A DNA stretch of 64,000 nucleotides, from assembly GCA_019358975.1 (NCBI GenBank), contig JAHHIL010000011.1, positions 1 through 64,000 on the forward strand, given 5' to 3'. The notes under the pieces are model-generated. The model saw only the letters and a program-made list of their open reading frames with translations. It made no database searches and had not been told where the DNA came from. The translations under genes were made by a program, and so were the position numbers. Positions 10,075-54,784 of the stretch are shown in pieces. Position 1 is the first letter of the stretch, and each line of letters begins with the position of its first letter. Source of the DNA: Trichocoleus desertorum ATA4-8-CV12 (lineage in GTDB: Bacteria > Cyanobacteriota > Cyanobacteriia > FACHB-46).

Positions 10075-12255
10075 ATGGCGAGCCCAACAGTCAGGAGAAG
10101 CACTAATCGCTCTCAATCAACGCTAACCAGTTGGCGCTTCAAACGTCTGCCTCTGCTACCTCGACGATGTGGAGCCTGGATGATTGAGGTGTCTTTGATT
10201 GTGGCGAGTGCTTGGGTGCCCTTTAGCTTGGGGGAGTATGCCAAGTTGCACTCCTCCAGTGAACCTGTGCCCTTGAACCCATTTGTCGCCAAAGCTGAGT
10301 CCGCGATCGCCCAAACCTTAGCAATCCCAGTGGGGGATCGTAACCGGACGGTGCCTCCCCTCACGAACCTACTATGGTCTGGGGCGGTCGTAGCTCCATT
10401 TGTAGTAGCAGGACTCAACCTGTACTCACTCGCTAAAACTGGTAAAACTCAACCAAAACGCTGGTTTGCGGTCAAGGTAGTAACAGCGACAGGAGCACCC
10501 CCAGGCTTTTTGAGAGCAGTCATGCGAGAAGGAGTAGGTCGGTGGGGGTTGCCTCTGGGGATCGCCTACACGATCTGGCGCTACAGTGGTGCCTTCCCCG
10601 ACCTCAGCATTTTGTTGGGGCTGGCTAGTTTTCTGGTACTTGGTGAAAACTTCAGTGCCCGGTTCAACTCTCGGCGTCGCGCTTGGCACGATCGCTTAAC
10701 TGGCACGACTGTAATCGATGCAGCCCAACCCACCCCCTTCTACAGCGATCGCGTTCAAGTTTTGCGGCGCGACAGCCAGGGCTGGTCAGAGCAGTCATCT
10801 CACTGGAGCGAGGAAGATGCTGCGATCGCTGCCATTGTACTAACACCGGAAAAAGGCTGGCGGGGGCAAGGTCTGTGGTACTGGATGCGCCAACACCCCG
10901 GCATGACATTGTTGATTGTGTCGCTCTCCAGCGTGGGTTTGGTACTAGGTACCTTTGTCGGGACTCAGGTCTATGTGCAAAGCCAAGCCAATCGTCGGGA
11001 GTTTAAGCAGCAAGATAATCAAGTTTTTTTAGCGTTGGTGAGTAAGCTTACGCCTAACTCAGTGGGTGCACCGGATGAACGGCAAGGCGCGATTTTGGCA
11101 CTGGGTACCGTGAATGACTCACGCGCAGTTCCCCTCTTAGTAGATTTGCTGGGGCAGGAAGACAAACCCGCCCTGATCGACGCAATTCAGCAAGCTCTAG
11201 TCAGTAGTGGCCCAGACGCTTTGCCCTATCTACAACGGCTCAATCAAGCCTTGAAGAACGATTTGGAATCGCTGCGACATGGCAATAACGAAAGAGAGTA
11301 CAGATTATTAGCCTTGAGACGTCGGGCTACCCAACGAGCGATCGCTAAACTTCTCACCATCTACAGCGGTCAAGTGCATGCTGCCGACTTAAGTCGAGTA
11401 GATTTAGGTCGTGTAGATAAAGGAGCCGCCCAGTTTACGCTGGTTTTGGACCGCATCGATCTCTCAGGGACCCAACTAAAAAACGCGATTCTCGCCGGGG
11501 CAAGCCTACAAGGAAGCCGCTTTTATGGAGCTGGAGAAGACGAGCGTTGGGGGACTTTCGACGACTGGATCTCTGACTTGAGTGGTGCGGAACTCAAAGA
11601 CACCAACTTAACAGGCGCTTTTCTAGGTCATACTTTGATGGATCGCACAAATCTAACTCGTGCCATTCTCAACAAGGCCGATTTGTCCCATGCTCGCATG
11701 TCTAAAGCGAATCTTAGTAGTGCCAAGCTGGTTGCCGCCAACTTCCACCAAGCTGTTTTAGATAGTGCTAGCCTCACAGGTGCCGACTTAGGTAATGCTG
11801 ACTTTTCTCAGGCCAACTTGCAATCTGCCCGGTTGGGGCAAGCCAGTGCTACAGCCACAAAGTTTCAGTTGGCTAACTTAGTACGCTCCGAGTGGCAGGG
11901 AGCTGACTTGACGGGAGCTGACTTCAGCCAAGCTAGGCTCCAGCATGCTGATCTGAGCTCTACACAACTAGCAGAAGCTAACTTCAGAAATGCTCAGCTC
12001 CAAAACGTGAGTTTCCGGAATGCGGATCTCAGACAGGCAGACTTACGCGGAGCCAATGTGGCTGGGGCGGACTTTCAAGGCGCAACCTTAGCTGCCTCGC
12101 CGCCAAAGTCATCAAGCCAGTTTATTCAGTTAGCTCCTAGTACCTCCCAACCGAGCAGGCTGAAAGGGGTCAATTTTGCCGATGCTCAAAACTTGAGCCC
12201 TACTCAAATCACCTATATTTGCGCTCAAGGCGGTCGCCATCCTCAATGTCGCTAA
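10075..12255 (+). CDS. RDD membrane protein with HEAT-like and pentapeptide repeats
   Basis: 726 aa from the ATG at 10075 (a TTG lies two codons earlier). An RDD-like domain at about 25-215 starts with RRCGAWMIEV and has hydrophobic segments near 45, 110 and 165. Another membrane helix is near 275-295. It is followed by a HEAT/PBS-like segment (ILALGTVNDSRAVPLLVDLLG) at about 340-385. From about 450 to the end there are 40 or so pentapeptide units of A(D/N)LXX type (LSGTQLKNA, ANLSSAKLV, ADLTGADFS), which fold as a right-handed beta helix. The stop codon lies within the first of three 14-bp tandem copies. The function is unknown; a membrane scaffold is an inference. Confidence 0.82.
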   Translation: MASPTVRRSTNRSQSTLTSWRFKRLPLLPRRCGAWMIEVSLIVASAWVPFSLGEYAKLHSSSEPVPLNPFVAKAESAIAQTLAIPVGDRNRTVPPLTNLLWSGAVVAPFVVAGLNLYSLAKTGKTQPKRWFAVKVVTATGAPPGFLRAVMREGVGRWGLPLGIAYTIWRYSGAFPDLSILLGLASFLVLGENFSARFNSRRRAWHDRLTGTTVIDAAQPTPFYSDRVQVLRRDSQGWSEQSSHWSEEDAAIAAIVLTPEKGWRGQGLWYWMRQHPGMTLLIVSLSSVGLVLGTFVGTQVYVQSQANRREFKQQDNQVFLALVSKLTPNSVGAPDERQGAILALGTVNDSRAVPLLVDLLGQEDKPALIDAIQQALVSSGPDALPYLQRLNQALKNDLESLRHGNNEREYRLLALRRRATQRAIAKLLTIYSGQVHAADLSRVDLGRVDKGAAQFTLVLDRIDLSGTQLKNAILAGASLQGSRFYGAGEDERWGTFDDWISDLSGAELKDTNLTGAFLGHTLMDRTNLTRAILNKADLSHARMSKANLSSAKLVAANFHQAVLDSASLTGADLGNADFSQANLQSARLGQASATATKFQLANLVRSEWQGADLTGADFSQARLQHADLSSTQLAEANFRNAQLQNVSFRNADLRQADLRGANVAGADFQGATLAASPPKSSSQFIQLAPSTSQPSRLKGVNFADAQNLSPTQITYICAQGGRHPQCR

Positions 12256-12287
12256 GCAAATGTCGCTAAGCAAATGTCGCTAAGCAA
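12246..12287. repeat. Three perfect 14-bp tandem copies across a stop codon
   Basis: ATGTCGCTAAGCAA is repeated exactly three times (12246-12259, 12260-12273, 12274-12287). The TAA in the first copy is the stop codon of the RDD/pentapeptide gene. The two extra copies lie in the 3' untranslated region. Confidence 0.9.
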
Positions 12288-12460
12288 AAAAGCTAGATTA
12301 TGGCTCTGCTTGGGTGAAAATAAGTAACAAGATCTCTAGTTTAAAGCTAGGAATTTGCTTGAATAGACCTGTGGATAAGTCAGCCCAGAGCAAGCGCTGA
12401 CGCCTGAAGTTGAATTGAGCGAGACAATCAATCAATGCTACTGGTAGTGAGGAATTGGCA

Positions 12461-15149: not shown

Positions 15150-15193
15150 GCTGGTAAGTATGAAGCCTCAAAGACTCCGGGCATGGCTACTGA

Positions 15194-15243
15194 TATCCAA
15201 AATAGTAGCCAAAAGCTACGGGTATCCAAAATAGTAGCCAAAA
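15194..15243. repeat. Two copies of a 21-bp direct repeat
   Basis: An identical 21-bp sequence beginning TATCCAAAATAGTAG lies at 15194-15214 and 15223-15243, start to start 29 bp. It is 45-95 bp upstream of the membrane pentapeptide gene, so it may be a regulator binding site or a duplication. Confidence 0.7.
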
Positions 15244-50196: not shown

Positions 50197-51189
50197 TTAG
50201 TCTGAGGAGAAATTACTAACTTGGGGGTGTATAGTAGAGCGCCACTGATGCACCACAGATTGCAATCGCGTCGGTAGCCAATCGTCGTACTGGGGATAAA
50301 CTGGCAAACGAGGTACTAAAGACCATCCCGCTTGGGCCAAGATTGCCGTTAAAGTTTCTATTTCGGGATGGGAGTAGTCAGGGTTCACTTCATCGCGTGG
50401 GCCAATCCCACCCAAATCTCTCGCACCTGCGGCTAAGCAAGCGAATAGTAGTTCCGGTTGTTGGATGAGGTTAGGGGGAATTTGTAGAGTAATACTGTCA
50501 GGTAAAATCTGGCGAGCCGTCGCAATTACCTCAATCAGTTCTGCTGCGGCAAAGGCAGCACCCGCCCAAGTTTGGTTTTGACCTGGACTATGAGGCTGCA
50601 AGATCACTTCTTGAATATGTCCCCAACGCTCTTGTATCCGCGCGATCGCTTCTAGGGTCGCCCAGCGTTCAGCAGGAGTTTCACCAATTCCCAATAATAA
50701 TCCTGTCGTAAAAGGGATTTGCAGTTCACCCGCCCAAGCCAACTGTTGCAGCCTTAGTTCAGGCACTTTACTAGGGGCATGACGATGCACAGTGGCTAAT
50801 AACTTAGGGGTAACTTGCTCTAGCATCAACCCCATAGAAACATTCACCCCCTTCAACCGAAGCATCTCGTTGAAACTGAGCGGCCCTACATTTGTATGAG
50901 GCAGTAGTCCCAAAGACAAAGCTAACTCAGCTAAATCATAAATTCGCTTCAACCAGTCTGCCCGCTGGGGGCTATTTGGATGCACTTCACCGCTGAGCAG
51001 CAAAACTTCAACTGCACCTTGGGCTTGAACTCGTCGCAGTCGAGTTTCTGCTTCGCTTAAAGACAACCAAACGTCCTGACCTGGATCGACGCGGAAATTG
51101 CAGTAGGTGCAGCGATTAAAGCACTCATAAGTCGGTACCAGAGTGTAGGCAGAACTAAAGGTGACAACAGATGAAGTGGATAAAGACAT
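50197..51189 (-). CDS. cofG: FO synthase subunit CofG
   Basis: 330 aa. Radical SAM enzyme: the CX3CX2C cluster motif is at Cys23, Cys27, Cys30 (YECFNRCTYC), followed by LLLSGEVHPN and GLLLGIGET. With CofH it makes the deazaflavin FO (8-hydroxy-5-deazariboflavin) from tyrosine and a ribityl-uracil. In cyanobacteria FO serves as the light antenna of some DNA photolyases. cofH is not in the window. It is 65 bp downstream of the PAS-LuxR gene on the same strand. Confidence 0.92.
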   Translation of the reverse strand: MSLSTSSVVTFSSAYTLVPTYECFNRCTYCNFRVDPGQDVWLSLSEAETRLRRVQAQGAVEVLLLSGEVHPNSPQRADWLKRIYDLAELALSLGLLPHTNVGPLSFNEMLRLKGVNVSMGLMLEQVTPKLLATVHRHAPSKVPELRLQQLAWAGELQIPFTTGLLLGIGETPAERWATLEAIARIQERWGHIQEVILQPHSPGQNQTWAGAAFAAAELIEVIATARQILPDSITLQIPPNLIQQPELLFACLAAGARDLGGIGPRDEVNPDYSHPEIETLTAILAQAGWSLVPRLPVYPQYDDWLPTRLQSVVHQWRSTIHPQVSNFSSD

Positions 51190-51254: not shown

Positions 51255-51965
51255 TCAAAACACCATAACCTGTTCGCACCATTGACCACTCCGTTTTTTG
51301 GCGTAGATATTTTTGACGTGGGTTTTTACAGTGTTCAAGCTGATGCGGAGAGTTCTAGCGATCTCTTGGTAGCTGCATTCTTGTCGCAATAGCATCCAAA
51401 TTTCGGACTCACGCTCGGTCAAGTCGTATCTTTTTTGCTCAATGCGTAATTCTTCCTGCAAGGCTTCGGTGGAGTTGTCCAAGATCACTAAAACGTACTG
51501 AGAATTGCTCGGCGAGTCAGCAGCACAGTCCTGTAGGTTTACTGGTAGCCAACTCGCTCGAATGCGGATCAACTGATCTTGGGGAGTCTGACGTTCTACA
51601 ACCAGCGGTTGCTTACCAGAACTCATATTTTTTAGCAACCGATAGCAAATTTCTGAAATTGCCAAAGGCAGACTAGCAGATTGGCGATCGCCTGAAGCGA
51701 GCAGTTGACACAGATGGTTAGCTTTCTCATTCAGGTAAAGAGGCTGAAGGTTACGTGAGAGAACCATCACGCCTTGCGGCAAAGATTCTAGCAACGCACT
51801 CCAGATCATCTCTAAACCGGAGGTATTGACTGTAGGCACATCATCTCTTCGATCCATGTGCGATTTGCAGGTACGTCTGCTAGAGATCGGGGTATTAGAG
51901 GAAGTTCTAAAAGGGGTCTTGAGGAATTGAGTCTCTACAGGATGGGGCAGTAGACGGGCTGTCAT
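51255..51965 (-). CDS. PAS-LuxR transcriptional regulator
   Basis: 236 aa from the ATG at 51965, with GAGGAG 7 bases before it; a TTG five codons upstream is open. Residues about 60-160 form a PAS-like fold (IWSALLESLPQGVMVLSRNL, PLYLNEKANHLC). A LuxR helix-turn-helix is at 180-230 (LTERESEIWMLL, YQEIARTLRISLNTVKTHVKNIYAK). No receiver domain is present. The ligand or signal is unknown. A phased repeat array lies 84-143 bp upstream. Confidence 0.88.
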   Translation of the reverse strand: MTARLLPHPVETQFLKTPFRTSSNTPISSRRTCKSHMDRRDDVPTVNTSGLEMIWSALLESLPQGVMVLSRNLQPLYLNEKANHLCQLLASGDRQSASLPLAISEICYRLLKNMSSGKQPLVVERQTPQDQLIRIRASWLPVNLQDCAADSPSNSQYVLVILDNSTEALQEELRIEQKRYDLTERESEIWMLLRQECSYQEIARTLRISLNTVKTHVKNIYAKKRSGQWCEQVMVF

Positions 51966-52425
51966 GGCGGTGCTCCTCAAATCATGCAGCTATTCTGCGC
52001 GCTCTCCGAATGAACACGCAATGAGCAACCTGTAGACAACACCAGAATCCTGAAGTGGTGCTGAGCGACCTGAAACAAGGTGAAGTGGGGTGAAACAGGG
52101 TGAAGTTTTTTATTACAATTCCTCTTCCGATAGAGAAATTGCGGAATAATAATGTCAATTAGGCAAATCAGTCAGGCAAAGAGCACTGGAGCTGCCATAG
52201 ATTTGTCAGCAGCTTGCCTAAGCTATATCAGCGCTTAGGAAGACCATAGGCTGTATTCAACTAAGCTCAGGAAGTAATCATTAAACCTTTTTCGGCTTTC
52301 CTGTAGTTTAGATTTTCAACTGAATTGCCTTTCCAAGACTCACTCGTTAGGGTGCTCTTTGGCTTCATGCCCCTATTCTGCCCGCACCGAATTCTTTAGA
52401 ACTCTGCCGACTCAGGTATTGACGC
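51966..52425. other. Divergent regulator/unknown-gene intergenic region
   Basis: 460 bp that should carry the promoters of both the PAS-LuxR gene (minus) and the unknown gene at 52426 (plus). Its main feature is the 10-bp repeat array (52049-52108); no small gene was seen. Confidence 0.6.
52049..52108. repeat. 10-bp phased TGAA repeat array
   Basis: Six consecutive 10-bp units: CCTGAAGTGG, TGCTGAGCGA, CCTGAAACAA, GGTGAAGTGG, GGTGAAACAG, GGTGAAGTTT. The TGAA core starts at 52051, (52061 degenerate), 52071, 52081, 52091 and 52101, so the sites lie on one face of the helix. GTG and ACA alternate after the core, giving a higher 20-bp order. Probably a binding site array for a regulator. Confidence 0.6.
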
Positions 52426-53535
52426 ATGATTAACTCTGATCGCCGCTCTAAGCTGATTGCTGAGGGTCAAAGGGCCATTGAAACTACTCCACTCAGACCC
52501 GAATTGTTAGACCATTGGTTTCCAGTCCAGCAGCAGCAACATTATGTTTCCCTCTGGATGGGTCGGGTGGGGTTAACACAACGACGGGCTGAATGTTTGG
52601 TGCAGTTGTGGGCTTATCTGGTTTTGAAGCAGCAATCTCAGTTTGGTAAGTTGCCTAAAGCTCCCTTGACCGAGTTGGAAACCCTGGAGGGTTTAGTCTC
52701 TTGTACCCATCGAGAGGCAGCTGAACTGTTTTATAACAGAAAGGAAAGAGGGAGCGATCGCGCGGCTGGCATGATGATCGATCGCTTGGCGGCTCTAGGG
52801 TTAATTGAGAAAAAGTTTGATGGAAATACCATCTGTATTGGCATTCGGCCTTTGCCTCCCGCCCCAGAGCAACAGCTAAGCCTGCCAAAAGTTATGCCAG
52901 ATGCTTTTAATCCTAGAACTGACACCATTCCCATTGCCAACTTGTTGGCTCGTAATTACTCCTGGATGGATAAAGACTCCTCCGCGATCGCCCCTCAGAA
53001 AATCGCCAAGATTTTGCGGTCTTGGGCTCAACAATATCCCAAGGGGATGCGGGTGCTGCGCCGCTGCGACAACTTGAATGCGGTGGGCATTAATATCTTG
53101 TTTCCTGTGGCTAGTGAATCTGAAGTCAATTTTTTCCTGCCACCCACTAAAAGCCTTTACTTAACGACTAGCACTGAAGTTGACCCCTTTAAGATCGCAG
53201 CACCAGGAGACCCAGACTGTACCTCTATTTTCGTGCGTTCTTGGATGATTGATCCGCCCTACATGCAGCGGCAACAAATGTACCAATTCTTAGAGGATGG
53301 TCGGCAGACGTTGGCGGCGATGCAGGATGATTTTCCCAATTTATGCGATATTTATGCCCTTGCGATTCATCCTATTTACGAAGAGTTACAGCCAGCGATC
53401 GGATTTCATAAGACTTGTCAAGCGGCTCAAAGCCTTCTCTACTGGACGTACCAACCCGTTGATCGTTACTTAGCTCTAGATCTCAAACAAGCAGTTGCCA
53501 ACTTGAAGCTGGATCTTTTTCCTAGCGATCGCTAA
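52426..53535 (+). CDS. Conserved-looking unknown protein, winged-helix-like N-terminus
   Basis: 369 aa. I do not recognise a family. Residues about 45-145 read as a helix-rich DNA-binding unit: LTQRRAECLVQLWAYLVLK, then LEGLVSCTHREAAELFY and MMIDRLAALGLIEKKFDG with a wing-like beta hairpin (NTICIGIR). The remainder (150-369) is alpha/beta with many Trp, Tyr and Pro residues and no membrane segments. It lies just before psbA and is divergent from the PAS-LuxR gene. A regulatory role is an inference. Confidence 0.75.
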   Translation: MINSDRRSKLIAEGQRAIETTPLRPELLDHWFPVQQQQHYVSLWMGRVGLTQRRAECLVQLWAYLVLKQQSQFGKLPKAPLTELETLEGLVSCTHREAAELFYNRKERGSDRAAGMMIDRLAALGLIEKKFDGNTICIGIRPLPPAPEQQLSLPKVMPDAFNPRTDTIPIANLLARNYSWMDKDSSAIAPQKIAKILRSWAQQYPKGMRVLRRCDNLNAVGINILFPVASESEVNFFLPPTKSLYLTTSTEVDPFKIAAPGDPDCTSIFVRSWMIDPPYMQRQQMYQFLEDGRQTLAAMQDDFPNLCDIYALAIHPIYEELQPAIGFHKTCQAAQSLLYWTYQPVDRYLALDLKQAVANLKLDLFPSDR

Positions 53536-53701: not shown

Positions 53702-54784
53702 ATGACTACTACTCTACAGAGACGCGAAAGCGCCAACCTGTGGGAGCAGTTCTGTAACTGGGTCACCAGCACCGACAACCGCCTCTATGTAGGCTGGTTC
53801 GGCGTCCTGATGATCCCAACCCTGCTCTCTGCTACCATCTGCTTCATCATCGCCTTCATCGCCGCTCCTCCCGTCGATATCGATGGTATCCGTGAGCCCG
53901 TCGCTGGCTCCCTCATCTACGGCAACAACATCATCTCTGGTGCCGTGGTGCCTTCCTCCAATGCGATCGGCCTCCACTTCTACCCCATCTGGGAAGCCGC
54001 TTCCCTCGATGAGTGGCTCTACAATGGTGGCCCTTACCAACTCGTGATTTTCCACTTCCTCATTGGCGTCTTCTGCTACATGGGTCGTGAGTGGGAACTC
54101 TCCTACCGCCTCGGCATGCGTCCTTGGATCTGCGTCGCTTACTCTGCGCCTGTCGCAGCCGCAACCGCAGTCTTCCTCATCTACCCCATCGGCCAAGGTT
54201 CCTTCTCCGATGGCATGCCCCTCGGCATCTCCGGTACCTTCAACTTCATGTTGGTGTTCCAGGCTGAGCACAACATCTTGATGCACCCCTTCCACCAACT
54301 CGGTGTGGCAGGTGTGTTCGGGGGCGCTCTGTTCTCCGCGATGCACGGTTCCTTGGTGACTTCTTCCTTGGTGCGTGAAACCAGCGAGAACGAGTCTCAG
54401 AACTACGGTTACAAGTTCGGTCAAGAAGAAGAGACCTACAACATCGTGGCAGCTCACGGCTACTTTGGCCGCTTGATCTTCCAATATGCGTCCTTCAACA
54501 ACAGTCGCGCTTTGCACTTCTTCTTGGGTGCATGGCCTGTGATCGGCATCTGGTTCACGTCCTTGGGCATCAGCACGATGGCGTTCAACCTGAACGGATT
54601 CAACTTCAACCAGTCGATCATCGACTCTCAAGGTCAAGTGATTGGCACCTGGGCTGACGTGTTGAACCGTGCGAACCTGGGGATGGAAGTGATGCACGAG
54701 CGCAACGCTCACAACTTCCCCCTCGACCTAGCTGCTGGCGAAGCTGCTCCTGTAGCGCTGAGCGCTCCTGCTATTCACGGTTAA
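53702..54784 (+). CDS. psbA: Photosystem II D1 protein
   Basis: 360 aa. All functional residues checked are present: Tyr161 (YZ), Asp170, His190, His198 (P680), His215 (iron), Ser264 (QB), His332, Glu333, His337, Asp342 and Ala344. The C-terminal 16 residues after Ala344 are the extension that CtpA removes. Residue 130 is Glu, the form found in high-light/D1:2-type proteins rather than Gln (D1:1). Only one copy is in the window. GC-rich third positions give a strongly biased codon pattern, as expected for high expression. A terminator follows at 54813. Confidence 0.99.

Follow-up and report, generated by a model that had tools for sequence, protein, structure and literature searches.

An array of TTCA units spaced by 10 bp, lying between two divergent genes of Trichocoleus desertorum ATA4-8-CV12, is probably a locus-specific operator that is bound head-to-tail by the protein of the adjacent, unannotated gene (hereafter UNK), and that controls the divergent promoters and UNK itself. 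Comparison of cyanobacterial genomes identifies the array as a genuine, deeply conserved cis element, and UNK, not the neighbouring LuxR-type protein, is most likely its reader. The element is apparently undescribed: the open-access literature, judged on titles and the beginnings of abstracts, yielded no description of the motif, the array or the protein.

The window, i.e. the whole 64,000-nucleotide stretch of DNA analysed here, places the array between UNK and a divergently oriented PAS-LuxR gene followed by cofG; psbA usually lies behind UNK. The relevant features are as follows (slots are counted from the first array unit).

50197..51189, minus strand: cofG (FO synthase subunit), just downstream of LuxR; NCBIfam CofG equivalog above cut-off, near LuxR in 31/36 loci
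51255..51965, minus strand: PAS-LuxR gene, ATG at 51965; GerE/LuxR HTH above cut-off, PAS weak
51992..51997, minus strand: CAGAAT, inferred LuxR -10, from the alignment of relatives
52011..52014, minus strand: TTCA of slot 10, in the LuxR promoter spacer and in array phase; TTC there in 20/21 aligned relatives
52019..52025, minus strand: CTCATTG box with the TTG of the inferred LuxR -35, near-invariant in aligned relatives
52051..52054, minus strand: TTCA of slot 6 (slot 5 is degenerate); window sequence and aligned relatives
52071..52074, minus strand: TTCA of slot 4; window sequence and aligned relatives
52081..52084, minus strand: TTCA of slot 3; window sequence and aligned relatives
52091..52094, minus strand: TTCA of slot 2; window sequence and aligned relatives
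52101..52110, minus strand: AAAAAC-TTCA, the first unit of the array including the invariant A-tract; AAA before the C of the first unit in 21/21 aligned relatives, and strict element search
52145..52150, plus strand: AATAAT, candidate (inferred) UNK -10, some 46 bp past array unit 1, a spacing kept in most relatives with ATTATT
52426..53535, plus strand: UNK gene, 369 aa; no Pfam or NCBIfam family, described from AF2 models and fold comparisons
53702..54784, plus strand: psbA, behind UNK and not otherwise implicated; in 25/36 loci, several of the misses being contig ends

The LuxR ATG is preceded by GAGGAG, and LuxR and cofG form a probable operon. The PAS domain is weak in the LuxR protein of the window (E 0.028) and stronger in some orthologues, a PAS-family match being found in a minority of the 35 LuxR orthologues. 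In all 35 aligned regions, one of which (G127) was anchored by hand, a -10-like hexamer follows the CTCATTG box at exactly 28 bp. On the UNK side, the distance from ATTATT to the first unit is about 44-49 bp in most relatives where ATTATT was found. A consensus promoter scan returned two matches, neither of which is the conserved CTCATTG/CARAAT pair; one of them, GTGAAA-18-TACAAT (52090-52119, plus strand), overlaps the array and shows no sign of conservation. GTGAAA-18-TACAAT and AATAAT are thus the two candidates for the UNK promoter. No terminator was found between 51900 and 52500, and an RNA element at the array was rejected, as no Rfam family scored above gathering and the sole match at E <= 1 was at chance level and elsewhere. 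Other tandem repeats in the window lie at 12245-12288 (14-bp unit, 3.1 perfect copies) and 15186-15243 (29-bp unit, 2 copies).

The six consecutive 10-mers at 52049-52108 are CCTGAAGTGG TGCTGAGCGA CCTGAAACAA GGTGAAGTGG GGTGAAACAG GGTGAAGTTT, and on the LuxR sense strand the array reads AAAAAC-TTCA-N6-TTCA and so on. The first-pass annotation had reported TGAA in five of these six units, and this count stands: five in-phase TGAA within 60 bp never occurred when the 460-bp intergenic region was shuffled 20,000 times with dinucleotides preserved (best four, once), and when any 4-mer at any period from 5 to 30 was allowed, five in phase occurred in 0/2,000 shuffles of the same region. Its distances were also confirmed, the array lying 84-143 bp upstream of the PAS-LuxR start (ATG at 51965) and, for the 'about 320 bp' before the unknown gene, 318 bp from the UNK start at 52426. 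Within the 64-kb window, at least three in-phase TGAA or TTCA occur at the array locus only, where Tandem Repeats Finder reports a weak 10-bp array (score 35). A genome-wide search (6.06 Mb) for TGAA-N6-TGAA-N6-TGAA gave four matches, the array itself accounting for two, and the reversed control gave two. The array does not end at 52049, another in-phase minus-strand TTCA being present at 52014-52011. The GTG/ACA alternation with a 20-bp super-period that had been proposed for the units did not hold up: it is imperfect in the window, where unit 2 carries GCG, and unconserved in relatives. We rejected it because the base preceding TTCA in slots 1-4 is mostly C (95, 81, 48 and 67% of 21 aligned relatives).

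Far from being absent in orthologous regions, TTCA units stand at this position in all 34 LuxR-orthologue loci, which were drawn from 96 relatives and 42 genomes of one order, and nearly all of these units share one 10-bp phase. The weak single loci among them are L053, with one in-phase unit, and L055, with two. Typical TTCA positions relative to the LuxR ATG are -140, -130, -120, -110, -90 and -50; pair distances of 10, 20, 30 and 40 bp were counted 71, 65, 37 and 37 times and no off-phase distance more than 5 times. The stretch from -380 to -176 of the same 34 loci showed no comparable phasing. The order UNK, array, LuxR is kept, with UNK present in 35/36 longer loci. Column statistics, based on the 21 of 35 relatives that share the majority spacing, indicate that the first unit hardly varies in its AAA, C and TTC and that in-phase T, TnC or TnG positions run on through slots -29, -19, -9 and +11, across the LuxR -35 region. 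The core is mostly the same in eighty named loci, most of them LuxR-neighboured and a few with one unit or none, and it is carried by Nostoc, Calothrix, Rivularia, Tolypothrix, Coleofasciculus, Moorena, Leptolyngbya and others.

Comparison across genomes establishes not only the conservation of the array but also its lattice. The set used comprised 130 non-redundant arrays from many families, obtained from 234 records after duplicates and unscored records were dropped; many loci come from related genomes, so that counts are not equal to independent events. Of the TTC[AG] that follow the first unit in these arrays, 386 are in phase, and the nine other phases together account for 67. Array detection favoured in-phase slots up to offset 40 and made no use of offsets 50, 70 and 90, and units were nevertheless counted at offsets 50 and 90 (50 and 35 occurrences). 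A scan of periods from 9 to 12 was sharpest at 10.0 bp. The distance from the array to the -35 is 39, 49, 59, 69, 79, 89 or 99 bp in 74 of the 84 non-redundant arrays with a recognisable promoter, 48, 68 or 78 bp in nine and 140 bp in one, i.e. the remainder modulo 10 is 9 in 74, 8 in nine and 0 in one. It had been suggested that the 10-bp units put all cores on the same face of the DNA, which is roughly true, but a 10.0-bp lattice over 90 bp drifts by nearly half a turn in free B-DNA of 10.5 bp per turn. In our reading, the 10.0-bp period reflects the spacing of protomers in a protein lattice and not one helix face. Four UNK-LuxR loci of family f13 (L208-L211, in G236, G370, G349 and G189) are an exception to the lattice, their first two TTCA being 11 bp apart and the third unit, TTGA, following 10 bp on. 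The single array at 140 bp (L113, G105), also upstream of LuxR, is accompanied by more in-phase units closer to the promoter, as would result from an insertion of about 61 bp.

The same comparison establishes that the element is locus-specific and co-occurs with UNK. UNK was found in 119/388 cyanobacterial genomes. The strict element AAACTTCACCYYRYTTCA has 30 matches in 29/388 genomes (reversed control, 2), of which 29 abut UNK: 28 lie beside an UNK match and one, in G270, beside a cut-off UNK start. Among the 269 genomes in which UNK was not matched, only G270 has a strict match; this genome is incomplete, and its contig (L246, G270:C39) passes from the UNK start into GC-rich unrelated sequence, probably by misassembly. 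The only strict match away from UNK (L247, G212:C2:425958-425975) lies between hypC and hypD and is probably due to chance. A wider regulon was considered and rejected, as 4-unit arrays off the locus are at control level (about 30 matches among those listed vs 27 in the control, 42 genomes, manual counts), and neither UNK nor LuxR was found at the off-locus arrays in G100 and G106/G107. Two genomes of one genus (G106:C1:3765057 and G107:C127:10268; L125 and L126) both carry a weaker TTCA array that is not near UNK or LuxR and may be a second site or reflect common descent. A search of the genome contigs for related loci with LuxR gave no match.

The neighbour on the other side of the array can be exchanged. 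Among 60 UNK loci, a divergent LuxR is present in 27 and missing in 33. Of the latter, 15 have at least three in-phase TTC[AG] at <=8/200 shuffles, eight more have arrays that start before the HMM start, and ten have no array; UNK matches beginning late in the profile were dropped from this re-examination. The element therefore does not come and go with LuxR, as arrays stand beside UNK genes that lack a divergent LuxR. It accompanies UNK irrespective of the other neighbour; the converse is not strict, since some UNK loci have no array. Alternative divergent neighbours are YiaAB, a diiron-like protein and a CDP-alcohol transferase. The diiron/ferritin-like protein recurs in this place (L177, L180, L182 and L246); its likeness was judged by eye, with no Pfam family above cut-off and DUF4439 below cut-off in one member. 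A second UNK copy of this genome (L165, G000:C3:119591-120643), also present in G001 and G002, has an unrelated neighbour. Two of its loci were inspected, and neither showed an array upstream; this copy could work in trans or through a different operator.

One UNK clade is associated with a TTCG core instead of TTCA. Beside YiaAB, the core is TTCG in G033 and TTCA in G190, and beside the diiron-like protein it is TTCG in G069 and G092 and TTCA in G174. Because the same kind of neighbour thus occurs with both cores according to UNK clade, the operator core, on this comparison of sequences, follows the UNK clade and not the neighbour. We compared the core with UNK residues in 142 distinct proteins with at least 250 aligned residues, 16 of which were typed as having no core and five as mixed. 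At the position equivalent to His95 (window numbering), at the start of a predicted HTH helix, Cys is found in 14/15 TTCG-typed proteins, while the 106 TTCA-typed proteins have 98 His, seven Asn, Leu or Gln and one Cys, the last at a locus whose first two units are TTCG. This co-variation was rejected as proof. It counts as one event because the tree (Fitch) gives a single change, His to Cys in one clade, and other columns, including some in the GNAT part, separate the UNK clades equally well.

Searches with UNK gave no Pfam (E <= 1) or NCBIfam family and no sequence match in the PDB. In the AF2 model (pLDDT 84 for the whole protein, 82 for residues 1-150 alone), residues 25-140 form a helical domain that closes with a wing of two strands, and residues 156-358 form a GNAT-like domain. 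Residues 25-140 are predicted in the order H-H-H-b-H-H-b-b (pTM 0.77), and the N-terminal model is closest to the Rep initiator 4pt7 (Z 8.3) and to 5kbj, a Rep-DNA complex (Z 7.9); other winged-helix regulators also resemble it in the fold comparison. The match is moderate, as a Z near 8 can reflect a common arrangement, and Foldseek with the N-terminal model returned nothing at E <= 0.001 (best E 0.013, PerR). The model is thus suggestive, not proof, of a winged-helix-like DNA-binding domain at the UNK N-terminus. For residues 156-358 the GNAT fold is borne out, Foldseek matching 5c88 (Ard1) at E 2.9e-5 and more GNAT structures below E 0.001. The acetyl-CoA signature of GNAT proteins, Q/RxxGxG/A, sits between strand 4 and helix 3; of 32 UNK proteins, nine contain it, at varying sites that never coincide with the expected one (positions read by eye). 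Because the signature is not conserved, the GNAT-like domain may sense or dimerise rather than acetylate.

We infer binding, a filament, autoregulation and the direction of control in the following form. Assembly of UNK would be nucleated at the AAAAAC-TTCAN6TTCA core and would proceed head-to-tail, with one protomer for every 10 bp, in the direction of the divergent promoter, whose -35 and spacer it would cover. The assembly would set transcription of the divergent operon, which is LuxR-cofG in the window and YiaAB, the diiron-like protein or the CDP-alcohol transferase elsewhere, and would also set transcription of UNK itself; that the GNAT-like domain senses a ligand is conjecture. Against UNK as the reader stand the arrayless UNK genes (10/33 of those without LuxR, and the second copy in this genome) and the 11+10 spacing of the four f13 LuxR loci.

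The arrangement can be compared with several known systems. In the LysR-type layout, an autoregulator is divergent from its target gene. Here, too, a regulator-like gene is divergent from a putative target with the operator between them, but the UNK fold differs, and the target varies from lineage to lineage with operator and regulator retained. Iteron arrays of plasmid Rep initiators are direct repeats read by winged-helix domains, and the UNK N-terminal model is closest to Rep initiators; however, the array has no replication context and lies in a divergent promoter, and the fold similarity is moderate (Z about 8, 10% identity). BldC, Xis and RdfS are winged-helix proteins that assemble head-to-tail on DNA. 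RdfS is reported to bind at one molecule per 10 bp, BldC filaments to place one DNA turn between molecules, and BldC to act on 9-bp direct repeats (PMC11963761). Repeats that are direct instead of inverted and recur at about one helical turn fit the 10-bp lattice and the distance steps found here. RdfS differs in that it reportedly lacks a consensus motif, in contrast to the invariant core of this lattice. UNK carries a GNAT-fold domain and gave no Pfam family, but may be a remote homologue of these proteins, and its oligomerisation is proposed from the lattice. By analogy, a head-to-tail winged-helix filament is the closest working model for UNK.

LuxR-type regulators often autoregulate, and PAS-LuxR could bind the array and autoregulate a luxR-cofG operon. 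The array does lie upstream of LuxR at a promoter-linked spacing, and the UNK-LuxR divergent pair is conserved over several families. We nonetheless consider this reading unlikely: UNK loci with a divergent gene other than LuxR carry arrays of the same core, and LuxR is less conserved than UNK (mean column identity in the aligned sets 40% vs 64%). In addition, nine LuxR homologues in genomes that lack UNK (L016-L019, L022, L024, L026, L031, L034) are without three or more in-phase TTCA, which is a weak test as they are only about 28-34% identical. The cooperative regulator envisaged in the first-pass annotation is thus upheld insofar as a phase-constrained regulatory array exists in orthologous regions, but PAS-LuxR as its reader is not favoured, since the element is retained beside UNK even where the neighbour is another gene. 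It is likewise improbable that a third regulator, e.g. OmpR-family RpaA or RpaB reading direct repeats spaced by 10 bp, binds the array, with UNK and its neighbours as mere targets. RpaB regulates many genes, and many sites would be expected of a global regulator, whereas the off-locus arrays are at control level and the strict element is nearly confined to UNK loci. OmpR-type cyanobacterial sites can indeed be direct repeats with a 10-bp period: the HLR1 of RpaB is given as two (G/T)TTACA(T/A)(T/A) separated by 2 nt (PMC9241938). The array resembles HLR1 in consisting of direct repeats of this period in cyanobacterial promoters, but its core is TTCA or TTCG, not TTACA, and it has up to ten slots instead of two.

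Two further explanations dispense with a dedicated reader. Intrinsic DNA structure, with a nucleoid protein bending or wrapping an A-tract and flexible, phased CA/TG steps, would account for strict phasing over about 90 bp and for the invariant AAA before the first unit. It is very unlikely, as the TTC[AG] sequence itself is conserved and not the phase alone, the change of core follows the UNK clade, and the element is locus-specific where many promoters would be expected. Chance, or a recent tandem duplication without function, is hardly credible and is already contradicted by the comparative data, the array being kept across cyanobacterial families that include Nostoc, Calothrix, Rivularia, Moorena and Leptolyngbya, and absent from all 20,000 shuffles. 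Slippage of tandem units would also yield length steps of 10 bp; however, it alone cannot explain all steps, because G035 and G000 differ in length by 20 bp between slots 6 and 10, beyond the TTCA run.

More tentatively, and with somewhat more doubt than confidence, UNK could represent an undescribed family of cyanobacterial regulators that polymerise on a 10.0-bp lattice and combine a winged-helix-like domain with a GNAT fold lacking the acetyl-CoA signature. The filament would reach from the operator into the -35 and spacer of the divergent promoter, so that distances could change only in 10-bp steps, and the module would have been re-used before at least four kinds of gene. CofG makes the FO antenna cofactor of photolyases (PMC9178010). 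Because the putative controlled operon includes cofG, it is possible that the array switch connects this locus with light or UV physiology. With UNK as the probable reader, an unannotated family, present in 119 of the 388 genomes sampled and often beside psbA, gains a testable role as a dedicated transcription factor. The natural series of operator-promoter spacings, from 39 to 99 bp and nearly all in 10-bp steps, offers a system for investigating how head-to-tail regulators count DNA turns.
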